This document shows, piece after piece, positions 43,979-51,498 of a stretch of DNA of 64,000 nt; positions within the stretch are counted from its first letter, which is position 1, and the number at the start of each line of letters is the position of its first letter. The notes beneath the pieces were generated by a model. The model was not told the DNA's origin. It did no database searches and saw only the letters and a program-made list of their open reading frames with translations. Source of the DNA: Chamaesiphon minutus PCC 6605 (GTDB lineage: Bacteria > Cyanobacteriota > Cyanobacteriia > Cyanobacteriales > Chamaesiphonaceae); contig NC_019697.1 in the NCBI RefSeq assembly GCF_000317145.1, forward strand, positions 4,166,886 to 4,230,885. Direction: 5' to 3'. Made by a program: the position numbers and the translations under genes.

Positions 43979-44449
43979 TTAAGAATTACTGTTTTCCGCA
44001 GCTAGAGAGTGCAAAAAGACTTTTTGAGCTAGTTCCAGCAACGCTTGTGAGTTCGCAGTTTCAATCGTTTGGATGGCATCTTCGTCAGAAGAACCATTCA
44101 AAATTAGATAAGCAGCGAGCATCGTGCCCGTTCGATGCAAGCCACCCGTGCAATGGACGGCAGTGCCCACACCTTGACGATGATATCGAGCGACAAAATC
44201 GATTAATTCTGCGACTTGCGATCGACTGGGCGAACTAGCAATCTGAATCGGCAGCCATAAGTAAGGAATATTTTCCCGATCGTACAACTCCAGGTTAGAT
44301 TTGTCGTGCATTACTGAGACGATCGCCCCAATTCCCGACGCTTGTAATTCCCGTAATTCGGCTGCTGTTGGCTTCCGAACACCTGCTAGTTTGCCAGGAA
44401 TTACCCACCATAAGTTCTTCACGATCGGCTCTGTTGATTGCTGCTCCAT
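43979..44449 (-). CDS. Dual-specificity/tyrosine protein phosphatase
   Basis: 156 residues. NLWWVIPGKLAGVRKPTAAE begins a DSP domain; the P-loop is AVHCTGGLHRTGTMLAAYLI with Cys and Arg of the CX5R motif, and YLWLPIQIASSPSRSQVAEL precedes it. The general-acid Asp usually in that loop (Y-x-P-I-x-D) is not obvious. Like the 24397-24942 protein it ends in a helical tail (QTIETANSQALLELAQKVFL). Substrate unknown. Upstream, a 32-bp small dispersed repeat (44509-44540) separates it from sphX. Confidence 0.8.
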   Translation of the reverse strand: MEQQSTEPIVKNLWWVIPGKLAGVRKPTAAELRELQASGIGAIVSVMHDKSNLELYDRENIPYLWLPIQIASSPSRSQVAELIDFVARYHRQGVGTAVHCTGGLHRTGTMLAAYLILNGSSDEDAIQTIETANSQALLELAQKVFLHSLAAENSNS

Positions 44450-44567: not shown

Positions 44568-45626
44568 CTAATAAGCTGGTTTCTTGGGGAGTAAATCTGA
44601 AATTTTAGAGTCAATTCTGGCTTTGCCAGAAAATACCGTACCTGTTTTACCGCGATTGAAGTTAACATAATTAATATCTCTAACTGCATTCGGCAGAGGA
44701 ACATATCCTACAGAATCAGCCACTCTAGAGACTCGATTGATATATAGTGTTACAAATTTAGCTAGTAACTGTCTATTGGAACTAGAACGCAGATTGACAT
44801 AAATAAATAGCGGTCTAGAAAGTGGTCGATATTGGTTTTTCTCTACAGTTTGGGTTGATGGTAAGATTGCACCTTTACCGTTATCGACTGCTAATAGTTT
44901 TAACTTACTTTGGTTTTCTTGGTAGTAAGCATAACCAAAATAACCCAAAGCATTTGGATCTTTACTAATTCCTTCTACCAAGGCTTCGTCATCTTCACTA
45001 GGGGTATAGTCTTTGCGGCTAGATTTCGATTTCCCTACGATTGCTTCGGTAAAATAATCGAAAGTACCAGACTTGTCACCCGCGCCAAATAGCTTCAAAG
45101 GTCGATCGGGCCAAGAGGGACGCACTTGGTTCCAGCGCATAATTTTACCCTGCGCTGCAGGCTCCCAGAGCTTTTTCAGCTCGGCGACAGTAATATCTTT
45201 TGCCCAATCATTTTGGGGATTGATGGCGATCGTCAGTGCATCAAAAGCAATCGGAAACTCCATGTATCTCACCCCATTTTTCTTGCAAGTTTCCATCTCT
45301 GCTAGCAAAATTGGTCGAGAAGCATTACTAATATCTGTTTTACCATTACAGAATTTTTCAAACCCGCCTGTCGTACCAGAAACTTTAACTTCAACCTGCC
45401 CCTTATTGCTGGGATCTGCTTGAAACAGCTTGACGATCGCCTGAGTAATCGGATACACCGTACTCGAACCATCAATCCTAATTGCTGGTGTCGTGGTTTT
45501 TCCGGCATCTCCCGCAGTCCCTTGTGCCATTTGGTGTTGGGCTGATGTATTTGCTGTGGCGAGCGAACTGACTACCAGAACTATGGTGCCTAATACTACT
45601 AGAAATCTATTCACTGTTGCGTTCAT
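44568..45626 (-). CDS. sphX: SphX/PstS-like phosphate-binding protein of the arsenic cluster
   Basis: 352 residues from ATG 45626 (MNATVNRFLVVLG). Signal peptide (VVLGTIVLVVSSLATANTSA) is followed by a PstS-like periplasmic domain: IRIDGSSTVYPITQAIVKLF, KVSGTTGGFEKFCNGKTDIS, NASRPILLAEM and DKSGTFDYFTEAI carry the phosphate-ligating Ser/Thr/Asp residues. The longer form YINRVSRVADSVGYVPLP near the end and the extra C-terminus fit cyanobacterial SphX. It starts 54 bp after arsJ, on the same strand, so it is probably the last gene of the gapdh-arsJ-sphX operon. It may discriminate phosphate from arsenate, or feed arsenate to the cycle; this is inference from context. Confidence 0.85.
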   Translation of the reverse strand: MNATVNRFLVVLGTIVLVVSSLATANTSAQHQMAQGTAGDAGKTTTPAIRIDGSSTVYPITQAIVKLFQADPSNKGQVEVKVSGTTGGFEKFCNGKTDISNASRPILLAEMETCKKNGVRYMEFPIAFDALTIAINPQNDWAKDITVAELKKLWEPAAQGKIMRWNQVRPSWPDRPLKLFGAGDKSGTFDYFTEAIVGKSKSSRKDYTPSEDDEALVEGISKDPNALGYFGYAYYQENQSKLKLLAVDNGKGAILPSTQTVEKNQYRPLSRPLFIYVNLRSSSNRQLLAKFVTLYINRVSRVADSVGYVPLPNAVRDINYVNFNRGKTGTVFSGKARIDSKISDLLPKKPAY

Positions 45627-45680
45627 TATATTCGGTTCCTTGTCGATTCTCAAATATATATGTTTGTCATTTGTCAAAAA

Positions 45681-46943
45681 TCAATCACCGTCGCCAGCCT
45701 TCCAAGCGATCGCCTTACTGGGCTGCGGATCGGGTAACTTCAGCGTCACCAATGCTGCTGAAAGTACAAAGAATGCTGATGTCCACAGGCAACCCACCAG
45801 CCCATAAAACTGATAAACTAGCCCCGATAATACCGTCCCTGCTAACCGACCGCCAGAGTTTGCCATGTAGTAAAAGCCAACATTCAACGCCACCTTGTCA
45901 TCGTCGGTAAATGCTAATACCAAGTAGGAGTGAACAGCCGAGTTAAAGGCAAATACCACACCAAAAATACACAGTCCGCCAACAATGGCAAGATTCGGCG
46001 GGACATTTAATTGGAGCGCAATCGCGATCGCGACTGGCACTCCAACTAGCGTAAATGTCCAAAATTGAATCGTCTTCGAGCCAGGTGGCTGGCCCGATCC
46101 AAACCGTTTCAATAGGGCTGGTGCCGAAAATTGAATGATGCCGTAACCAATTACCCAACAAGCCAAGAAACCGCCTACTTGAGCGAAAGACCAGCCTAAC
46201 TGTCCCCGCAAAAAGACTGGCAAACCCACCACAAACCAGACATCTCTGGAGCCAAACAAAAAGAATCGGGCAGCCGAGAGAATATTGATTTCACGGCTCT
46301 TGGAGAAGAGTTGGCTAAATTTAACCTTTTTCTTGATTTTGCCTATCCCTTTGGGCAGCAATAGCCCAGAGAACATGATTACAGCAAGTCCACCTGCCAT
46401 AATCCACAAGGCATGAATAAAACCAACCGCAGTCAGTAAGGCACCACCAACAAAGAAACCAGCCCCCTTGAGCGCGTTCTTGGAACCCGTCAGCACTGCC
46501 ACCCATTTGAACAGCGATGACTGAGCATCTTGAGGTACTACCAACCGAATTGCGCTCTTCGAACTCATCTTAGTCAAGTCTTTAGCAATCCCCGAAAATG
46601 CTTGAGCAACCATCACATACGGGACGGCAATCCATAGCGACCAGCTTGGATTGAGGAAAGATAGAATGACCAGCGAAATTACCTGTAGTCCGATCCCTGT
46701 ATACAGCGTCACTTTCAGGCCAAACTGAGAGCCAATCCAACCGCCCAAAAAGTTGGTAACTACACCGAAGACTTCGTAGAACAGAAACAAAGAAGCTATT
46801 TGAATTGGGGTATAGCCAATGTTATAAAAGTAGAGCAGCACCAGCATTCGCAAGGCACCATCAGTAATGGTGAAGCCCCAGTAAGCTAATGTCACCAGCG
46901 CATAGTTCTTGAAATTGGCACTGGAAGCTGTAGTAGAATCCAT
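45681..46943 (-). CDS. arsJ: Organoarsenical efflux permease ArsJ (major facilitator superfamily)
   Basis: 420 residues with about 11-12 membrane spans. NFKNYALVTLAYWGFTITDG, ALRMLVLLYFYNIGYTPIQI and FLFYEVFGVVTNFLGGWIGS are distinctive of ArsJ. Family knowledge: it exports 1-arseno-3-phosphoglycerate made by the neighbouring glyceraldehyde-3-phosphate dehydrogenase, giving arsenate resistance. The gapdh gene lies 238 bp upstream on the same strand. That gap contains GTCGGTTGGGTAGCGG and a GCTTCGCTTCGCTTTACTCAACC segment, apparently a repeat insertion, so the two genes were probably closer once. SphX follows. Confidence 0.92.
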   Translation of the reverse strand: MDSTTASSANFKNYALVTLAYWGFTITDGALRMLVLLYFYNIGYTPIQIASLFLFYEVFGVVTNFLGGWIGSQFGLKVTLYTGIGLQVISLVILSFLNPSWSLWIAVPYVMVAQAFSGIAKDLTKMSSKSAIRLVVPQDAQSSLFKWVAVLTGSKNALKGAGFFVGGALLTAVGFIHALWIMAGGLAVIMFSGLLLPKGIGKIKKKVKFSQLFSKSREINILSAARFFLFGSRDVWFVVGLPVFLRGQLGWSFAQVGGFLACWVIGYGIIQFSAPALLKRFGSGQPPGSKTIQFWTFTLVGVPVAIAIALQLNVPPNLAIVGGLCIFGVVFAFNSAVHSYLVLAFTDDDKVALNVGFYYMANSGGRLAGTVLSGLVYQFYGLVGCLWTSAFFVLSAALVTLKLPDPQPSKAIAWKAGDGD

Positions 46944-47181
46944 GACTGCATAAGGAAGGAATAAGGGGATAATCTAATACTTAGGAATGAGAATTAAATA
47001 ACTTGCGTCGGTTGGGTAGCGGATGCGCCCCGGTCGGGAAACCTGACCATGGCAGCGATTTGCACGCGCACTTGTTTCTTGACGGTTAGGCAAATTAAGA
47101 TAGCGCACCAAGCAGAGTAGAGCCAAACCCACAGCTCTAGAGATGTTGGGCTTCGCTTCGCTTTACTCAACCTAAATGATT

Positions 47182-48195
47182 CTAATCCATACTCAGAGCC
47201 ACCTTCCGGGCGAGTTCGACCATCCGGTTGGCATAGCCCCACTCATTGTCATACCAAGCTAAGATTTTCACTTGAGTCTCATTGATTACCATCGTCGAGA
47301 GCGCATCGATAATCCCAGAGCGAGGGTCGTCTTTATAATCGATCGAGACTAAAGGGCGTTCCTCATAGCCTAAAATACCTTGGAGCGGTTCCTGTTCGGC
47401 AGCAGTTTTGAGTAGTTGATTGACTTCGGCGATAGTGGTCGATCGCATGACTTCAAATACACAATCTGTGAGCGAAGCGTTGAGTAAAGGCACACGCACC
47501 GCTAGACCATTGAGTTTGCCATTCAGTTCGGGATAAATTAAGCCGATCGCGGTTGCCGATCCGGTAGAGGTGGGAATCAAGGATAAACTGGTAGCTCTAG
47601 CCCGACGCAAATCTTTATGGGGCGCATCGACGATCGTTTGTGTATTGGTATTGTCATGGATAGTAGTAATTACTCCATGCTTAATCCCCAAACCTTCATG
47701 AATTACCTTGACGACTGGAGCCAAGCAATTAGTAGTACAAGAAGCGGCTGTTAGCAGATGATGTTTATCCGGCTCGTAAAGCCCATCATTGACTCCCATG
47801 ACGATATTCAGGGCTTCTTGCTTCACCGGAGCAGCTACAATTACCTTCCGGACACCACCCTTAAAATAAGGATCGAGAGTTGCGGGAGTTCTAAATTTAC
47901 CAGAGCATTCTAGTACTAGATCGACACCCAAATCTTGCCAAGGAACATCTCCAGGTTGAGCATGTTCGCTAAAAGTTAGGGGTTTAGCGTCAATCAAGAC
48001 TTTCCCGTTCTCAGCCTCTACGTCTGGTGCCCAACGTCCGTGGACAGAATCAAACTTGAGTAAGTGCGCAGCAGCTTCAGCTCCACCTTTGACCTCATTA
48101 ATATGCACGAATTCTATTTCTGGCCACTCCCACGCTGCCCGCAAATCTAGCCGTCCAATCCGTCCAAATCCATTGATACCTACCCGTACTGTCAT
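47182..48195 (-). CDS. ArsJ-associated glyceraldehyde-3-phosphate dehydrogenase
   Basis: 337 residues. NAD-binding [18 protein letters not shown]; catalytic Cys153 in [18 protein letters not shown]; active-site His in [26 protein letters not shown] at the end. The N-terminus [19 protein letters not shown] is typical of the ars-linked group rather than the glycolytic Gap1/Gap2. In the ars pathway it uses arsenate instead of phosphate to make unstable 1-arseno-3-phosphoglycerate, which ArsJ exports. It is the first gene of the leftward operon and diverges from arsR across an operator-bearing region. Confidence 0.93.
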
Positions 48196-48243
48196 TTAGT
48201 TTTCCTCTCTCGAAATTCTAATTTTTAAATACTTATATTCATA

Positions 48244-48301
48244 TCAATATATATTGACAATCATCGATATAATATCAACTCACATCGATTTATGTCAATA
48301 T
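48244..48301 (-). promoter_or_regulatory. Promoter of gapdh-arsJ-sphX with two ArsR-type operators
   Basis: On the minus strand -35 TTGACA (48298-48293) and -10 TATTAT (48274-48269) are 18 bp apart. Operator G1 (48282-48301) is ACATCGA-N6-TCAATAT over the -35; G2 (48251-48270) is ATATTGA-N6-TCGATAT at and just after the -10. A further 14-bp palindrome TCAATATATATTGA (48244-48257) overlaps G2. The same dyad is found before the aquaporin-PstS gene, so an ArsR site is inferred. ArsR itself starts 8 bp to the right, so the same sites can control it. Confidence 0.75.
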
Positions 48302-48308
48302 AGAAATT

Positions 48309-48641
48309 ATGAAATCTTTAAAAACGCCGCCAATTTTTTGTTGTCCACCTTTGTTAGCAGGTCGTCTAACCGAAACAGAAGCAGCTAGTGCCGCAGTTTT
48401 GTTTCGAGTATTAGGCGAACCAGCACGGCTTCAGTTGTTGAGTTTAATTGCTGCCCAGCCAAGTGGAGAGGTGTGTGCTTGCGAATTGGTAGAATCCCTC
48501 GGACTGTCGCAGCCCACAGTCAGCCATCACCTCAAAGTCATGTATGAAGCAGGTTTATTACAAAAAGAGCGGCGCGGCACCTGGATCTACTATCGAATCG
48601 TCCAATCACAATTAGTATCCTTGCGATCGGTACTGACTTAG
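48309..48641 (+). CDS. arsR: ArsR-family arsenic-responsive repressor
   Basis: 110 residues. Winged helix-turn-helix with VCACELVESLGLSQPTVSHHLKVMYEAGLLQKERRGTWIYYRI. Cys56 and Cys58 (GEVCACEL) form the As(III)-sensing pair of type-1 ArsR, and Cys11-Cys12 (IFCCPP) at the N-terminus could add a third ligand. It derepresses on arsenite or trivalent organoarsenicals. It diverges from the gapdh operon and converges with the aquaporin-PstS gene (stops 21 bp apart). Confidence 0.93.
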   Translation: MKSLKTPPIFCCPPLLAGRLTETEAASAAVLFRVLGEPARLQLLSLIAAQPSGEVCACELVESLGLSQPTVSHHLKVMYEAGLLQKERRGTWIYYRIVQSQLVSLRSVLT

Positions 48642-48662: not shown

Positions 48663-49208
48663 TTATTTAACTTTATTGAGTTCCGCTTTTGCTTTAGCTA
48701 CTAAAGCATCATCTAGGGGTGGATAGCCCAGATCGTTGGCTGAAGCCTTCCCTGTCGTCAATGCCCACTCAACCGCTGCTTTTAATGCTGTTGTCTTGGT
48801 GGTATCTTTAGGCTGTGGGTATACTGTCTCTAGAATTAAGGATTGCAACCAGTTTCCGTCGCGCGGCATCGTCGCGCCAAGATTGCCCACTGCGCCTAGA
48901 GAGAGTCGCAAGAGCAGAGAAGCCGCGATCGCGCCTAGTACTTGTGCCAAAACACAGGGCAACACTAAATTACGCCGAAAAAAACCACTGCGCCAAAAAG
49001 CTAAAGTCACTGCTGGATTGAAATGTGCGCCGCTAATATGACCAAGGCTATAGATTAACGCCGTTACCACCGCGCCAAACACAATGCTGATGCCCAGATG
49101 GGTAACGGCACCATTGCTGAGTTTATCGACCATCACGGCTCCCGTGCCAGCAAATATCAACACGAAGGTGCCAATGAATTCTGCTAACAATTCACGAGAG
49201 TGCTGCAT
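48663..49208 (-). CDS. Aquaporin N-terminal half fused to PstS C-terminus
   Basis: 181 residues from ATG 49208. Residues 1-127 are a MIP/aquaporin: SRELLAEFIGTFVLIFAGTG, HISGAHFNPAVTLAFWRSGF with the first NPA at 64-66, AQVLGAIAASLLLRLS and NLGATMPRDGNWLQSLILE. Aquaporins then continue with three more spans and a second NPA; here the sequence switches to VYPQPKDTTKTTALKAAVEW, ALTTGKASANDLGYPPLDDALVAK, the last 55 residues or so of PstS. Normal aquaporins are 230-250 residues and PstS about 330. The junction is in frame and the gene starts below two ArsR-type operators. In ars loci AqpS-type aquaporins expel arsenite; the half-pore here cannot form a normal channel. Likely origin: a deletion between adjacent aqpS and pstS genes. 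Confidence 0.85.
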   Translation of the reverse strand: MQHSRELLAEFIGTFVLIFAGTGAVMVDKLSNGAVTHLGISIVFGAVVTALIYSLGHISGAHFNPAVTLAFWRSGFFRRNLVLPCVLAQVLGAIAASLLLRLSLGAVGNLGATMPRDGNWLQSLILETVYPQPKDTTKTTALKAAVEWALTTGKASANDLGYPPLDDALVAKAKAELNKVK

Positions 49209-49212
49209 AGGT

Positions 49213-49279
49213 ATATCGACGTATATCGATATTGACGGACAACGGTATTTTATCAACCTATATCGATTTGTGTCAATAT
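49213..49279 (-). promoter_or_regulatory. Promoter of the aquaporin-PstS gene with two ArsR-type operators
   Basis: On the minus strand -35 TTGACA (49276-49271) and -10 TAAAAT (49252-49247) are 18 bp apart. Operator A1 (49260-49279, ATATCGA-N6-TCAATAT) covers the -35; A2 (49213-49232, a perfect ATATCGA-N6-TCGATAT) lies between the start site and the ATG at 49208. This copies the arrangement in front of gapdh, showing that the fused gene sits in the ArsR regulon. Confidence 0.75.
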
Positions 49280-49308
49280 AGATTTTATCAGAGGGGGTCG
49301 CTCGCCAT

Positions 49309-51438
49309 CTAAGTTTGCACAGTAAATTGGTCGGGGTGTATTCCCCAATTTATCCACACGATCGCATCTTGTGCGCTAGTCATTTGCGGGGGTACACGCA
49401 GAATATGAATACTGCCTGTAGAGGGACAAGTCATTTTAAGTAATAGCATTGGCTCCGATACAGTTTGGCGTAAAGTTCGATCGTAGAATCTTTCTATATC
49501 ACCAATCTTTAGTAATGTATATTCCCGCCATCGATCGATTTCGATTGCACCTAATTCCTGACAAATTTTCTCGTAACCTACCTGCTGAATCAGTACGCGC
49601 TTGATTTCCGCATTATTTTCCTCTAAGAGCCATTCAGGTTTCCAATCACTAACTTTTGTCCAGTAGCGACGGGGGAGAAAGACCCGTAACCAATGTACAG
49701 TTAGATTTGGTATAGTTTGGAGCACAGACAAGTCGGTTAGATCGGTTAATGGATTTTTTGTTAGATTAAGTGTCTTTAAGTTAGTAATATTTCCGATATT
49801 CTTCGGGATATCAGTTAGCAAATTATTTGTACAATCTAGACTATTTAAATTCACTAAATTTCCAATACTCTCCGGTAAACATCTAAGTCTGTTATTCCGA
49901 ATTTTCAGACTTTGTAGATTGGCTGCTAAATTTCCAATACTCTCAGGCAAGCATCTAAGTCTATTATTCCAAATCTTGAGCTTTTTCAAATTCGTGAGAT
50001 TACCCATACCTTCGGGTAGAAGCTTAATGTAATTTCTTTGCAAGTATAAATGAGATATACTTTGTAGATTGCTGATAGTTTCCGGCAAACAAGTTAATCT
50101 ATTTTTATACAGATCTAGCTTTTCAATATTATGTAGATTACCAATTGTATCTGGTAACTCACTAATTTGATTGCGCCCTAAATCTAGTATGGATAAACTT
50201 GTAAGATTGCCAATACTATCTGGTAATTTTTCAAGGTTGTTTTTCCACAAGTACAACTCTTTTAACTTTTTTAAATTGCCAATATCATCTGGCAATCTAT
50301 TAATGTTATTGCCATTAAGATTTAGTTTTCTCAGATTGACAAGATTGCCAAAGTTTTTAGTTAAGTCTACGATCTTATTATTGATTAATTGCAGACAACT
50401 TAATTTAGTTAATTTTCCAATATTCTCTGGTAATGAGGTCAAGCAATTGTTGCCTAAATGCAATTCATTTAACATTTTTAAATTACCAATACCATCAAAT
50501 AATATGTCGACTTTATTGTTCGATAGATTCAGATAGTTTAGATTTATTAGCTTGCCAATGCTCTCGCTTCTATTTCTTAATAACTTATTACTGTATAGGT
50601 TAAGATATGTTAGATTAACAAGATGTTCGATACTTATTGGTAAAATCGCAATGTTATTGCATTTTAAATTTAACCAAACTAAATTTTTCAATAGTCCGAT
50701 ACTTTCTGGTAAACTATTAAGTCGATTATGACTTAAATCTAAATGAGTTAATTTACTTAAGTTACCTATGCTTTCTGGTATCGTAACTATCGAACTAGAA
50801 TTTATATATAAATGGGTTAAATTACTCTGTGCTCCAAGTTGTTCGATCGTTTTAAAGATCGAACTCTGACCGCTCCCCCATAATTGGATATGAGTTAAGT
50901 TTTTTAAGCTGCCAATTGCAGTTGGGATTTGTTGAAGTTGACTGCACCAGGATAAATTCAGATGTTTTAGTCGATCTAAATTACCAATACTTTCTGGTAA
51001 AGTTGTGATGACACCAGCCGAGAGATTTAAATAGGTTAATTTACTTAGATTTCCGATACTATCTGGCAACTCAGCTAATTTGGTAGCATGACTTAGATTT
51101 AAATGAGTTAAATTAGATAGATCGCCAATACTGGTCGGTAATATTTCGATTAGATTCCAAGTAAGATCTAGCTCCTTTAGATTGGATAAATTACCAATAC
51201 TTTCTGGCAACCTAGCAATTTTAGTATTTCTTACATAAAGTCGAGTCAACTTAGATAGATTGCCAATACTCTCCGGCAAACTAGTAAGCGAAAACCATGT
51301 GATGTGTAGCTCGGTTAGATCTGTAAGATCGCCAATAGTGTCTGGTAAAAATGTGAGCTGATTAACACCTAGCCGTAAAATAGACCAGCGTTCACGCTTA
51401 GCGGTGGCAATGATATCTTCTAGTTCGGATAATTGCAT
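49309..51438 (-). CDS. Leucine-rich-repeat protein with C-terminal DUF6745-like domain
   Basis: 709 residues from ATG 51438 (MQLSELEDIIATAKRERWSI). About 24 LRRs of roughly 23 residues follow, each with a LPESIGNLSNL-type consensus. Residues of about 545-590 contain a near-exact tandem copy (NNRLRCLPESIGNL twice), pointing to recent repeat growth. A C-terminal domain of about 120 residues (RVLIQQVGYEKICQELGAIE, IDRWREYTLLKIGDIERFYD, LLLKMTCPSTGSIHILRVPP and DAIVWINWGIHPDQF) recurs at the end of other cyanobacterial LRR proteins and resembles DUF6745. No signal peptide or membrane span, so it is probably cytosolic, binding a partner protein. Base composition is lower in GC than in neighbours, because of Asn/Lys/Ile codons. 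The longer frame to 51492 is not needed. Confidence 0.8.
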   Translation of the reverse strand: MQLSELEDIIATAKRERWSILRLGVNQLTFLPDTIGDLTDLTELHITWFSLTSLPESIGNLSKLTRLYVRNTKIARLPESIGNLSNLKELDLTWNLIEILPTSIGDLSNLTHLNLSHATKLAELPDSIGNLSKLTYLNLSAGVITTLPESIGNLDRLKHLNLSWCSQLQQIPTAIGSLKNLTHIQLWGSGQSSIFKTIEQLGAQSNLTHLYINSSSIVTIPESIGNLSKLTHLDLSHNRLNSLPESIGLLKNLVWLNLKCNNIAILPISIEHLVNLTYLNLYSNKLLRNRSESIGKLINLNYLNLSNNKVDILFDGIGNLKMLNELHLGNNCLTSLPENIGKLTKLSCLQLINNKIVDLTKNFGNLVNLRKLNLNGNNINRLPDDIGNLKKLKELYLWKNNLEKLPDSIGNLTSLSILDLGRNQISELPDTIGNLHNIEKLDLYKNRLTCLPETISNLQSISHLYLQRNYIKLLPEGMGNLTNLKKLKIWNNRLRCLPESIGNLAANLQSLKIRNNRLRCLPESIGNLVNLNSLDCTNNLLTDIPKNIGNITNLKTLNLTKNPLTDLTDLSVLQTIPNLTVHWLRVFLPRRYWTKVSDWKPEWLLEENNAEIKRVLIQQVGYEKICQELGAIEIDRWREYTLLKIGDIERFYDRTLRQTVSEPMLLLKMTCPSTGSIHILRVPPQMTSAQDAIVWINWGIHPDQFTVQT

Positions 51439-51498
51439 AACGAATTTATGGAGCAGCGATCGATGATGAGCCAATATGGTTCGGTTAAGCAAAGATAT

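Follow-up and report, generated by a model that had tools for sequence, protein, structure and literature searches.

An in-frame aquaporin-PstS chimera in the ars locus of Chamaesiphon minutus PCC 6605, probably a scar of a change of arsenic pathway

Features of the ars locus

The window, i.e., the whole stretch of 64,000 nucleotides that was analysed, carries an ars locus in which the first half of an aquaporin gene is fused to the end of a pstS gene. The following features were assigned.

44568..45677, minus strand: PstS-like gene of the ars locus (TIGR02136); also found beside aqpS or arsC in loci L007 and L071
45681..46943, minus strand: arsJ, organoarsenical efflux permease (NF033734, over cut-off)
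47182..48195, minus strand: gapdh, ArsJ-associated glyceraldehyde-3-phosphate dehydrogenase (NF033735, over cut-off)
48196..48308, minus strand: arsR/gapdh intergenic region, a second promoter/operator copy with 78% identity over 60 bp to the chimera promoter by alignment
48309..48641, plus strand: arsR, convergent with the chimera, stops 21 bp apart (Pfam HTH_5, NCBIfam ArsR/SmtB metalloregulator)
48663..48821, minus strand: chimera tail, codons 130-181 and stop, C-terminus of a pst-operon-type PstS (TIGR00975, identity to Chamaesiphon PstS, DNA alignment)
48822..49208, minus strand: chimera head, codons 1-129, first half of an AqpS-like aquaporin with one NPA at 64-66 (Pfam MIP, identity to C. 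polymorphus, hydrophobicity)
49209..49284, minus strand: chimera promoter with ATCGAT-type palindromes, probable ArsR operators (promoter scan and alignment)

The genes of the window are arranged as amidase, leucine-rich-repeat gene, chimera, arsR on the opposite strand, gapdh, arsJ, PstS-like gene and phosphatase-like gene. In C. polymorphus, the arrangement is amidase, full-length aqpS, arsC, PstS-like gene, two phosphatase-like genes and arsH, and aqpS directly follows the amidase gene. The leucine-rich-repeat protein of the window (49309-51492, minus strand), located between the amidase gene and the chimera, has 727 aa and a C-terminal DUF6745 match. The phosphatase-like gene (43979-44449, minus strand) resembles dual-specificity phosphatases and adjoins the PstS-like gene, as both copies do in C. 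polymorphus.

A promoter-like site, TTGACA-18-TAAAAT, was found at 49276-49247 with 11 of 12 matches, and is weak alone, since the scan gave 5 sites against 2.3 ± 1.9 in shuffles. The chimera promoter and its palindromes aligned with promoters of three kinds: those of the aquaporin genes in three relatives (G001, G004, and G008), that of arsC in G003 and that of gapdh in the window. This likeness suggests that ArsR may control the chimera promoter. The preliminary description had regarded the promoter and both operators as intact; the promoter is indeed kept and aligns with those of relatives, whereas the palindromes are better called probable ArsR operators. The interval between amidase and arsR contains no aqpS in G003; there, the head gave no match, and the tail gave only chance-level matches elsewhere in the stretch. 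The spacer between arsR and amidase in G003 (L078:8290-8857), i.e., the site of aqpS in relatives, contains several ATCGATAT-type palindromes and no aqpS remnant detectable by blastn.

The gapdh and arsJ genes are adjacent (45681-48195), as is characteristic of the GAPDH/ArsJ pathway, and both score over the curated cut-offs. In contrast, the ArsC that defines the ArsC/AqpS pathway was not found in the host genome, either in a search at E 0.001 or in a separate ArsC search of the phylum. Among nine genomes of the genus, arsC was present in five and ArsJ in one, i.e., the host only. Close ArsJ proteins (82%) are encoded on plasmids of other cyanobacteria, i.e., Calothrix and Leptolyngbya, and transfer is therefore a possible source of ArsJ. 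A true ACR3 pump was considered as an arsenite exit and rejected, as two matches scored 104 and 100 bits against a family cut-off of 282.8. These ACR3-like matches (L128 and L129, G000:C1:1729140-1740063) are approximately 10 kb apart; one is near full length in a 402-aa frame, and the other covers 75 model positions in a 109-aa frame.

Anatomy of the chimera

The chimera consists of 181 codons (48663-49208, minus strand), with an ATG at 49208, a stop at 48663-48665 and no internal stops. Pfam MIP covers residues 3-129 only, corresponding to model positions 6-137 of 222. One NPA motif (residues 64-66) was found, and the three hydrophobic peaks all lie in the head, the tail being hydrophilic. 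A MIP/aquaporin channel has six spans and two NPA motifs; the chimera has only part of the model, one motif and three peaks. Its descent from AqpS is evident in 94% identity to residues 1-130 of the full-length C. polymorphus aquaporin, and its start codon is the same as that of AqpS in G001, G004, and G008.

In the tail, NCBIfam TIGR00975 (PstS) matched residues 129-179 at model positions 263-313 of 315 (21.3 bits, E 1.2e-4). The match falls under the curated cut-off of 205 bits, as expected for a 51-residue piece, and it leaves no room for the full two-lobed binding domain and signal peptide of PstS. Pfam gave no match to the tail alone. The PstS C-termini of nine Chamaesiphon genomes showed 58-69% identity to the tail (64% for the host's own pstS), and solved PstS C-termini also matched it, with a best E of 4.1e-4. 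Because both sets match, the likeness to PstS is not due to chance.

The DNA junction lies directly after codon 129 (GTA), beyond which aquaporin relatives continue into the fourth span. The pstS sequence is entered with TAC-CC, where Chamaesiphon pstS genes have TAT-CC. The preliminary description had recognized a 181-residue frame opening as an AqpS-like aquaporin with a single NPA and joined in frame to the PstS stop, and had proposed to compare the two parts separately. The open frame, the domain matches and the identities above, which lead the head to aquaporins and the tail to PstS, bear it out. It had placed the switch at about residue 127; the switch exists, but two residues later. The in-frame aquaporin-PstS chimera is thus real. 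By chance alone, one join in three would be in frame, and no special cause is needed.

The ACTT directly 3' of the PstS stop also follows the stop in six of nine Chamaesiphon pstS genes, a match too short to be proof that part of the pstS-pstC spacer remains. Structure prediction of the chimera gave no usable model (mean pLDDT 42.5, 7 sequences). If made, the product would have three of six spans, one of two NPA motifs and a soluble end expected on the periplasmic side; judging from these parts, it would not be a pore.

Assembly and uniqueness

An assembly artefact joining two loci would also produce such a frame. This possibility was judged from the assembled sequence. The junction lies inside a 6.28-Mb contig of a 6.76-Mb genome in 3 contigs, and neither the missing second half of AqpS nor arsC was found elsewhere in the genome, so that an assembly deletion is unlikely. 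In the second-half search, the one strong match (51%) was a different 269-aa aquaporin, and one further match was at E 0.14. The tail shows only 68% DNA identity to the genome's own pstS, and thus this gene was not misjoined. In all, an artefact is extremely improbable.

The fusion was found in one of 11 genomes of the family. No second case was present among the matches listed for 388 genomes of the order, a search that would reveal only the head of a fusion whose tail had changed greatly; the other AqpS-type matches listed ended at residue 130 or before.

Origin of the PstS tail

As far as family match and identity indicate, the tail stems from a Chamaesiphon-like PstS of the pst-operon family (TIGR00975). 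Outside Chamaesiphon, the best identity was 46% among 386 genomes of the phylum. The host's own pstS was rejected as the donor, since its DNA identity to the tail was 67.9% versus 73.1% for those of G007 and G008. In a FastTree tree of 156 bp, a stretch too short to fix the exact donor, the tail grouped with the pstS of G007 (support 0.914), and the host's own pstS grouped with that of C. polymorphus (0.993). The donor was perhaps a lost second pstS copy or a transferred piece. Phages and plasmids were rejected as sources: the tail had no match by tblastn in 50,697 phage records at E 1 and none in 72,556 plasmid records at 1e-5.

In the preliminary description, the simplest explanation of the chimera was a deletion across aqpS and pstS genes that had been neighbors in an ancestral ars locus. 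The evidence supports a fusion of deletion type that placed a PstS tail after an aqpS head, with the former aqpS promoter in front. That the two genes had been neighbors is unproven: the PstS-like gene found in the ars locus is of another family (TIGR02136) than the tail (TIGR00975) and was rejected as the donor. The suggested search for an aqpS-pstS gene order in relatives did not bring the genes together. Both the aqpS head and the pst-operon pstS were found in five Chamaesiphon genomes, on different contigs in four drafts and approximately 1 Mb apart in the host. The gene downstream of aqpS in these four drafts was arsC.

Selection on the head and tail

Between the heads of the host and C. 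polymorphus, dS was 0.43 and dN 0.030, i.e., a dN/dS of 0.07 over 127 codons, and the ratio ranged from 0.03 to 0.12 across ten head pairs. The two heads differ at 41 bases over 129 codons, 16 of which were assignable to a branch and 25 were not. The assigned changes were 3 silent and 3 replacing on the host's own branch and 6 and 4 on that of C. polymorphus; the unassigned were 24 silent and 1 replacing. By estimate, with half of dS placed on the host's own branch, neutral evolution of the head would have produced about 60 replacing changes along this entire branch. Only 3-4 were seen (95% upper bound about 10), and a neutral phase would therefore fill at most roughly a sixth of the own branch.

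Ratios of the tail to PstS were 0.09-0.27 in pairs where dS was computable, and those between PstS pairs were 0.03-0.34, many of them saturated. Of 29 columns invariant in eight Chamaesiphon PstS, the tail changes four, whereas each PstS left out in turn changes 0-3 of 29-32; C. polymorphus PstS and the first column were excluded from this test. The protein branch of the tail (0.35) is the longest of the small tree. These values indicate a mild acceleration rather than free drift. The gene is truncated and fused, as a pseudogene may be, but its frame is open and the head ratio is low. The low head dN/dS and the intact frame and promoter mean that the fusion is recent or that the head is still selected.

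Selection on the head would be expected if the chimera were a new working protein, induced by arsenite through the release of ArsR, with three membrane spans and a periplasmic tail derived from PstS. It might perhaps serve as a half-channel that dimerizes or, under arsenic stress, as a plug for the Pst transporter or for another aquaporin or channel. The open frame, the head ratio of 0.07, the mildly accelerated tail, and the retained promoter and probable operators all suit such a protein. However, a recent fusion accounts for the conservation equally well. The chimera lacks half of the pore and one NPA, its tail is without the PstS signal peptide and most of the fold, and the fusion is confined to one genome among those searched (11 of the family and the matches listed for 388 of the order). 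Moreover, broken AqpS recurs without a PstS tail in three other ArsJ genomes, as described below. A working protein is therefore considered very unlikely.

AqpS, ArsC, and ArsJ in cyanobacteria

In a phylum sample of 386 genomes per search, ArsJ (threshold 1e-60) was found in 92, AqpS (1e-50) in 26 and ArsC (1e-20) in 89. Without the host, the counts were 91, 25, and 89 of 385. All 25 AqpS carriers other than the host had ArsC, and none had ArsJ, compared with ArsJ in 91 of the 385 genomes (Fisher p 0.0009, uncorrected for kinship). The distance between aqpS and arsC was below 1 kb in 22 of the 25, the exceptions being G133, G299, and G362. AqpS was intact in 23; that of G395 is disrupted, and that of G133 has one internal stop. 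ArsJ and ArsC occurred together in 11 genomes of this sample, and therefore ArsJ alone does not displace ArsC.

In the order sample, 36 of the AqpS-bearing genomes entered the ArsJ search. ArsJ was absent from all 33 with an AqpS head in an open frame of at least 232 aa, which were scored as intact from the head and the length of the frame alone. The frameshifted AqpS of G398 was not accompanied by ArsJ, and the broken AqpS of G633 and G640 both were. Taking 23 phylum and 33 order genomes, ArsJ was present in 0 of 56 with intact AqpS versus 2 of 5 with broken AqpS (G133, G395, G398, G633, and G640), with a Fisher p of 0.005 that is uncorrected for kinship, many of the 56 belonging to one genus. 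The five were found regardless of ArsJ, although the ArsJ of G633, not that of G640, was known beforehand from the locus. The host and G306 did not enter the test, since the chimera had led to the one and ArsJ to the other.

ArsJ together with a trace of AqpS was found in four genomes, i.e., the host, G306, G633, and G640, and AqpS was broken in all four. In G633, the aqpS head lies before arsR and is alike to residue 74, with NPG instead of NPA and then a stop; arsJ and gapdh are approximately 4 kb away on the other strand. In G640 (L138), whose genome is 83% complete, a frameshifted aqpS lies beside arsR and ArsJ is on another contig. G306 (L119 and L141) has a decayed second half of aqpS by arsJ and arsH fragments by gapdh, and these remnants lie on both sides of gapdh-arsJ. 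The surroundings of gapdh-arsJ in G306 form a second graveyard of older ars genes; G306 was not among the matches of the phylum ArsC search. Among 20 ArsJ loci, a trace of aqpS was present in one (G306, E 0.5) and arsC in three, and AqpS wrecks are thus not the rule at ArsJ loci. In G395 (L139), the disrupted aqpS stands beside arsR, arsH and arsC look whole there, and no ArsJ was found.

Probable change of the arsenic pathway

The chimera is probably a young non-functional scar of a switch from the ArsC/AqpS to the GAPDH/ArsJ pathway, in frame by chance. Excerpts of published work describe the properties of both pathways. AqpS makes Sinorhizobium meliloti sensitive to outside arsenite and resistant to arsenite made inside by ArsC (PMC6205960), and as a channel it works downhill only (PMC9454679). 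GAPDH-ArsJ expels a phosphoglycerate derivative of arsenate (PMC6205960, PMC9454679). From these properties, a cell with ArsJ and without ArsC would gain little from AqpS and have a leak.

The switch may have taken place as follows. In the ancestral locus, as in C. polymorphus, ArsC would turn arsenate into arsenite, and AqpS would let the arsenite leak out downhill. In the host lineage, arsC would have been lost, with gapdh-arsJ now occupying its position downstream of an ars promoter copy and expelling arsenate as 1-arseno-3-phosphoglycerate. Without ArsC, AqpS would mainly admit outside arsenite, and its loss would cost nothing and may be favored. A rearrangement would then have interrupted aqpS behind codon 129 and attached the 52 terminal codons of a Chamaesiphon-type pstS, in frame by chance. 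Breakage of AqpS is expected once it is a leak of little gain, and the chimera would be such a break. The loss of arsC and the presence of gapdh-arsJ, i.e., the likely reason for the fusion, had been missed in the preliminary description. Intermediate steps of the switch and the pstS donor were not found.

Some observations count against the switch. The head dN/dS of 0.07, the intact frame and promoter, and the mild tail acceleration give no sign of decay. The coexistence of ArsJ and ArsC in 11 genomes is a further point. AqpS is also broken in G395, G133, and G398, which have no ArsJ. These cases speak for a neutral relic of a chance deletion, unlinked to any change of arsenic pathway, although G398 may be a sequencing error, as its arsC and PstS-like gene are frameshifted too. 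Against such a relic stands the association of ArsJ with broken rather than intact AqpS (2/5 versus 0/56, p 0.005 before any correction for kinship), and it is regarded as unlikely. The pathway switch is preferred.

Taken alone, the chimera is the wreck of a gene, and its value lies in the surrounding pattern of AqpS, ArsC, and ArsJ. Intact AqpS goes with ArsC and not with ArsJ, and this association is a more useful result than the chimera. It suggests a rule that cells retain a passive arsenite channel only as long as they produce arsenite themselves, and that a change to GAPDH-ArsJ makes the channel a liability. No statement of this rule was found in the excerpts of literature retrieved by keyword, which is no proof of its being unpublished.

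Comparison with known systems

The chimera resembles AqpS of the ars operons of S. meliloti and cyanobacterial relatives in the first 129 residues, start codon, promoter, and ars neighborhood. Unlike AqpS, it lacks the second half, in which spans 4-6 and the other NPA are located, and the host genome has no arsC. With pst-operon PstS (TIGR00975), it shares the last 52 codons and the stop, but roughly 85% of the protein, including the signal peptide and phosphate site, is missing, and no pst genes adjoin. The broken aqpS genes of G633, G640, and G306 are likewise aqpS remains in an ArsJ genome; however, they were ended by stops or frameshifts and carry no PstS tail.

Literature on aquaporin fusions and half-aquaporins found by keyword concerned eukaryotes or methods, judging by titles and abstract openings. 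The AqpS-ArsC fusion of Salinispora tropica, as given in an excerpt of PMC6205960, is also an ars-locus aquaporin fused to another protein. In that case, the partner is the arsenate reductase and the channel is said to work, whereas the chimera combines half a channel with the end of PstS.
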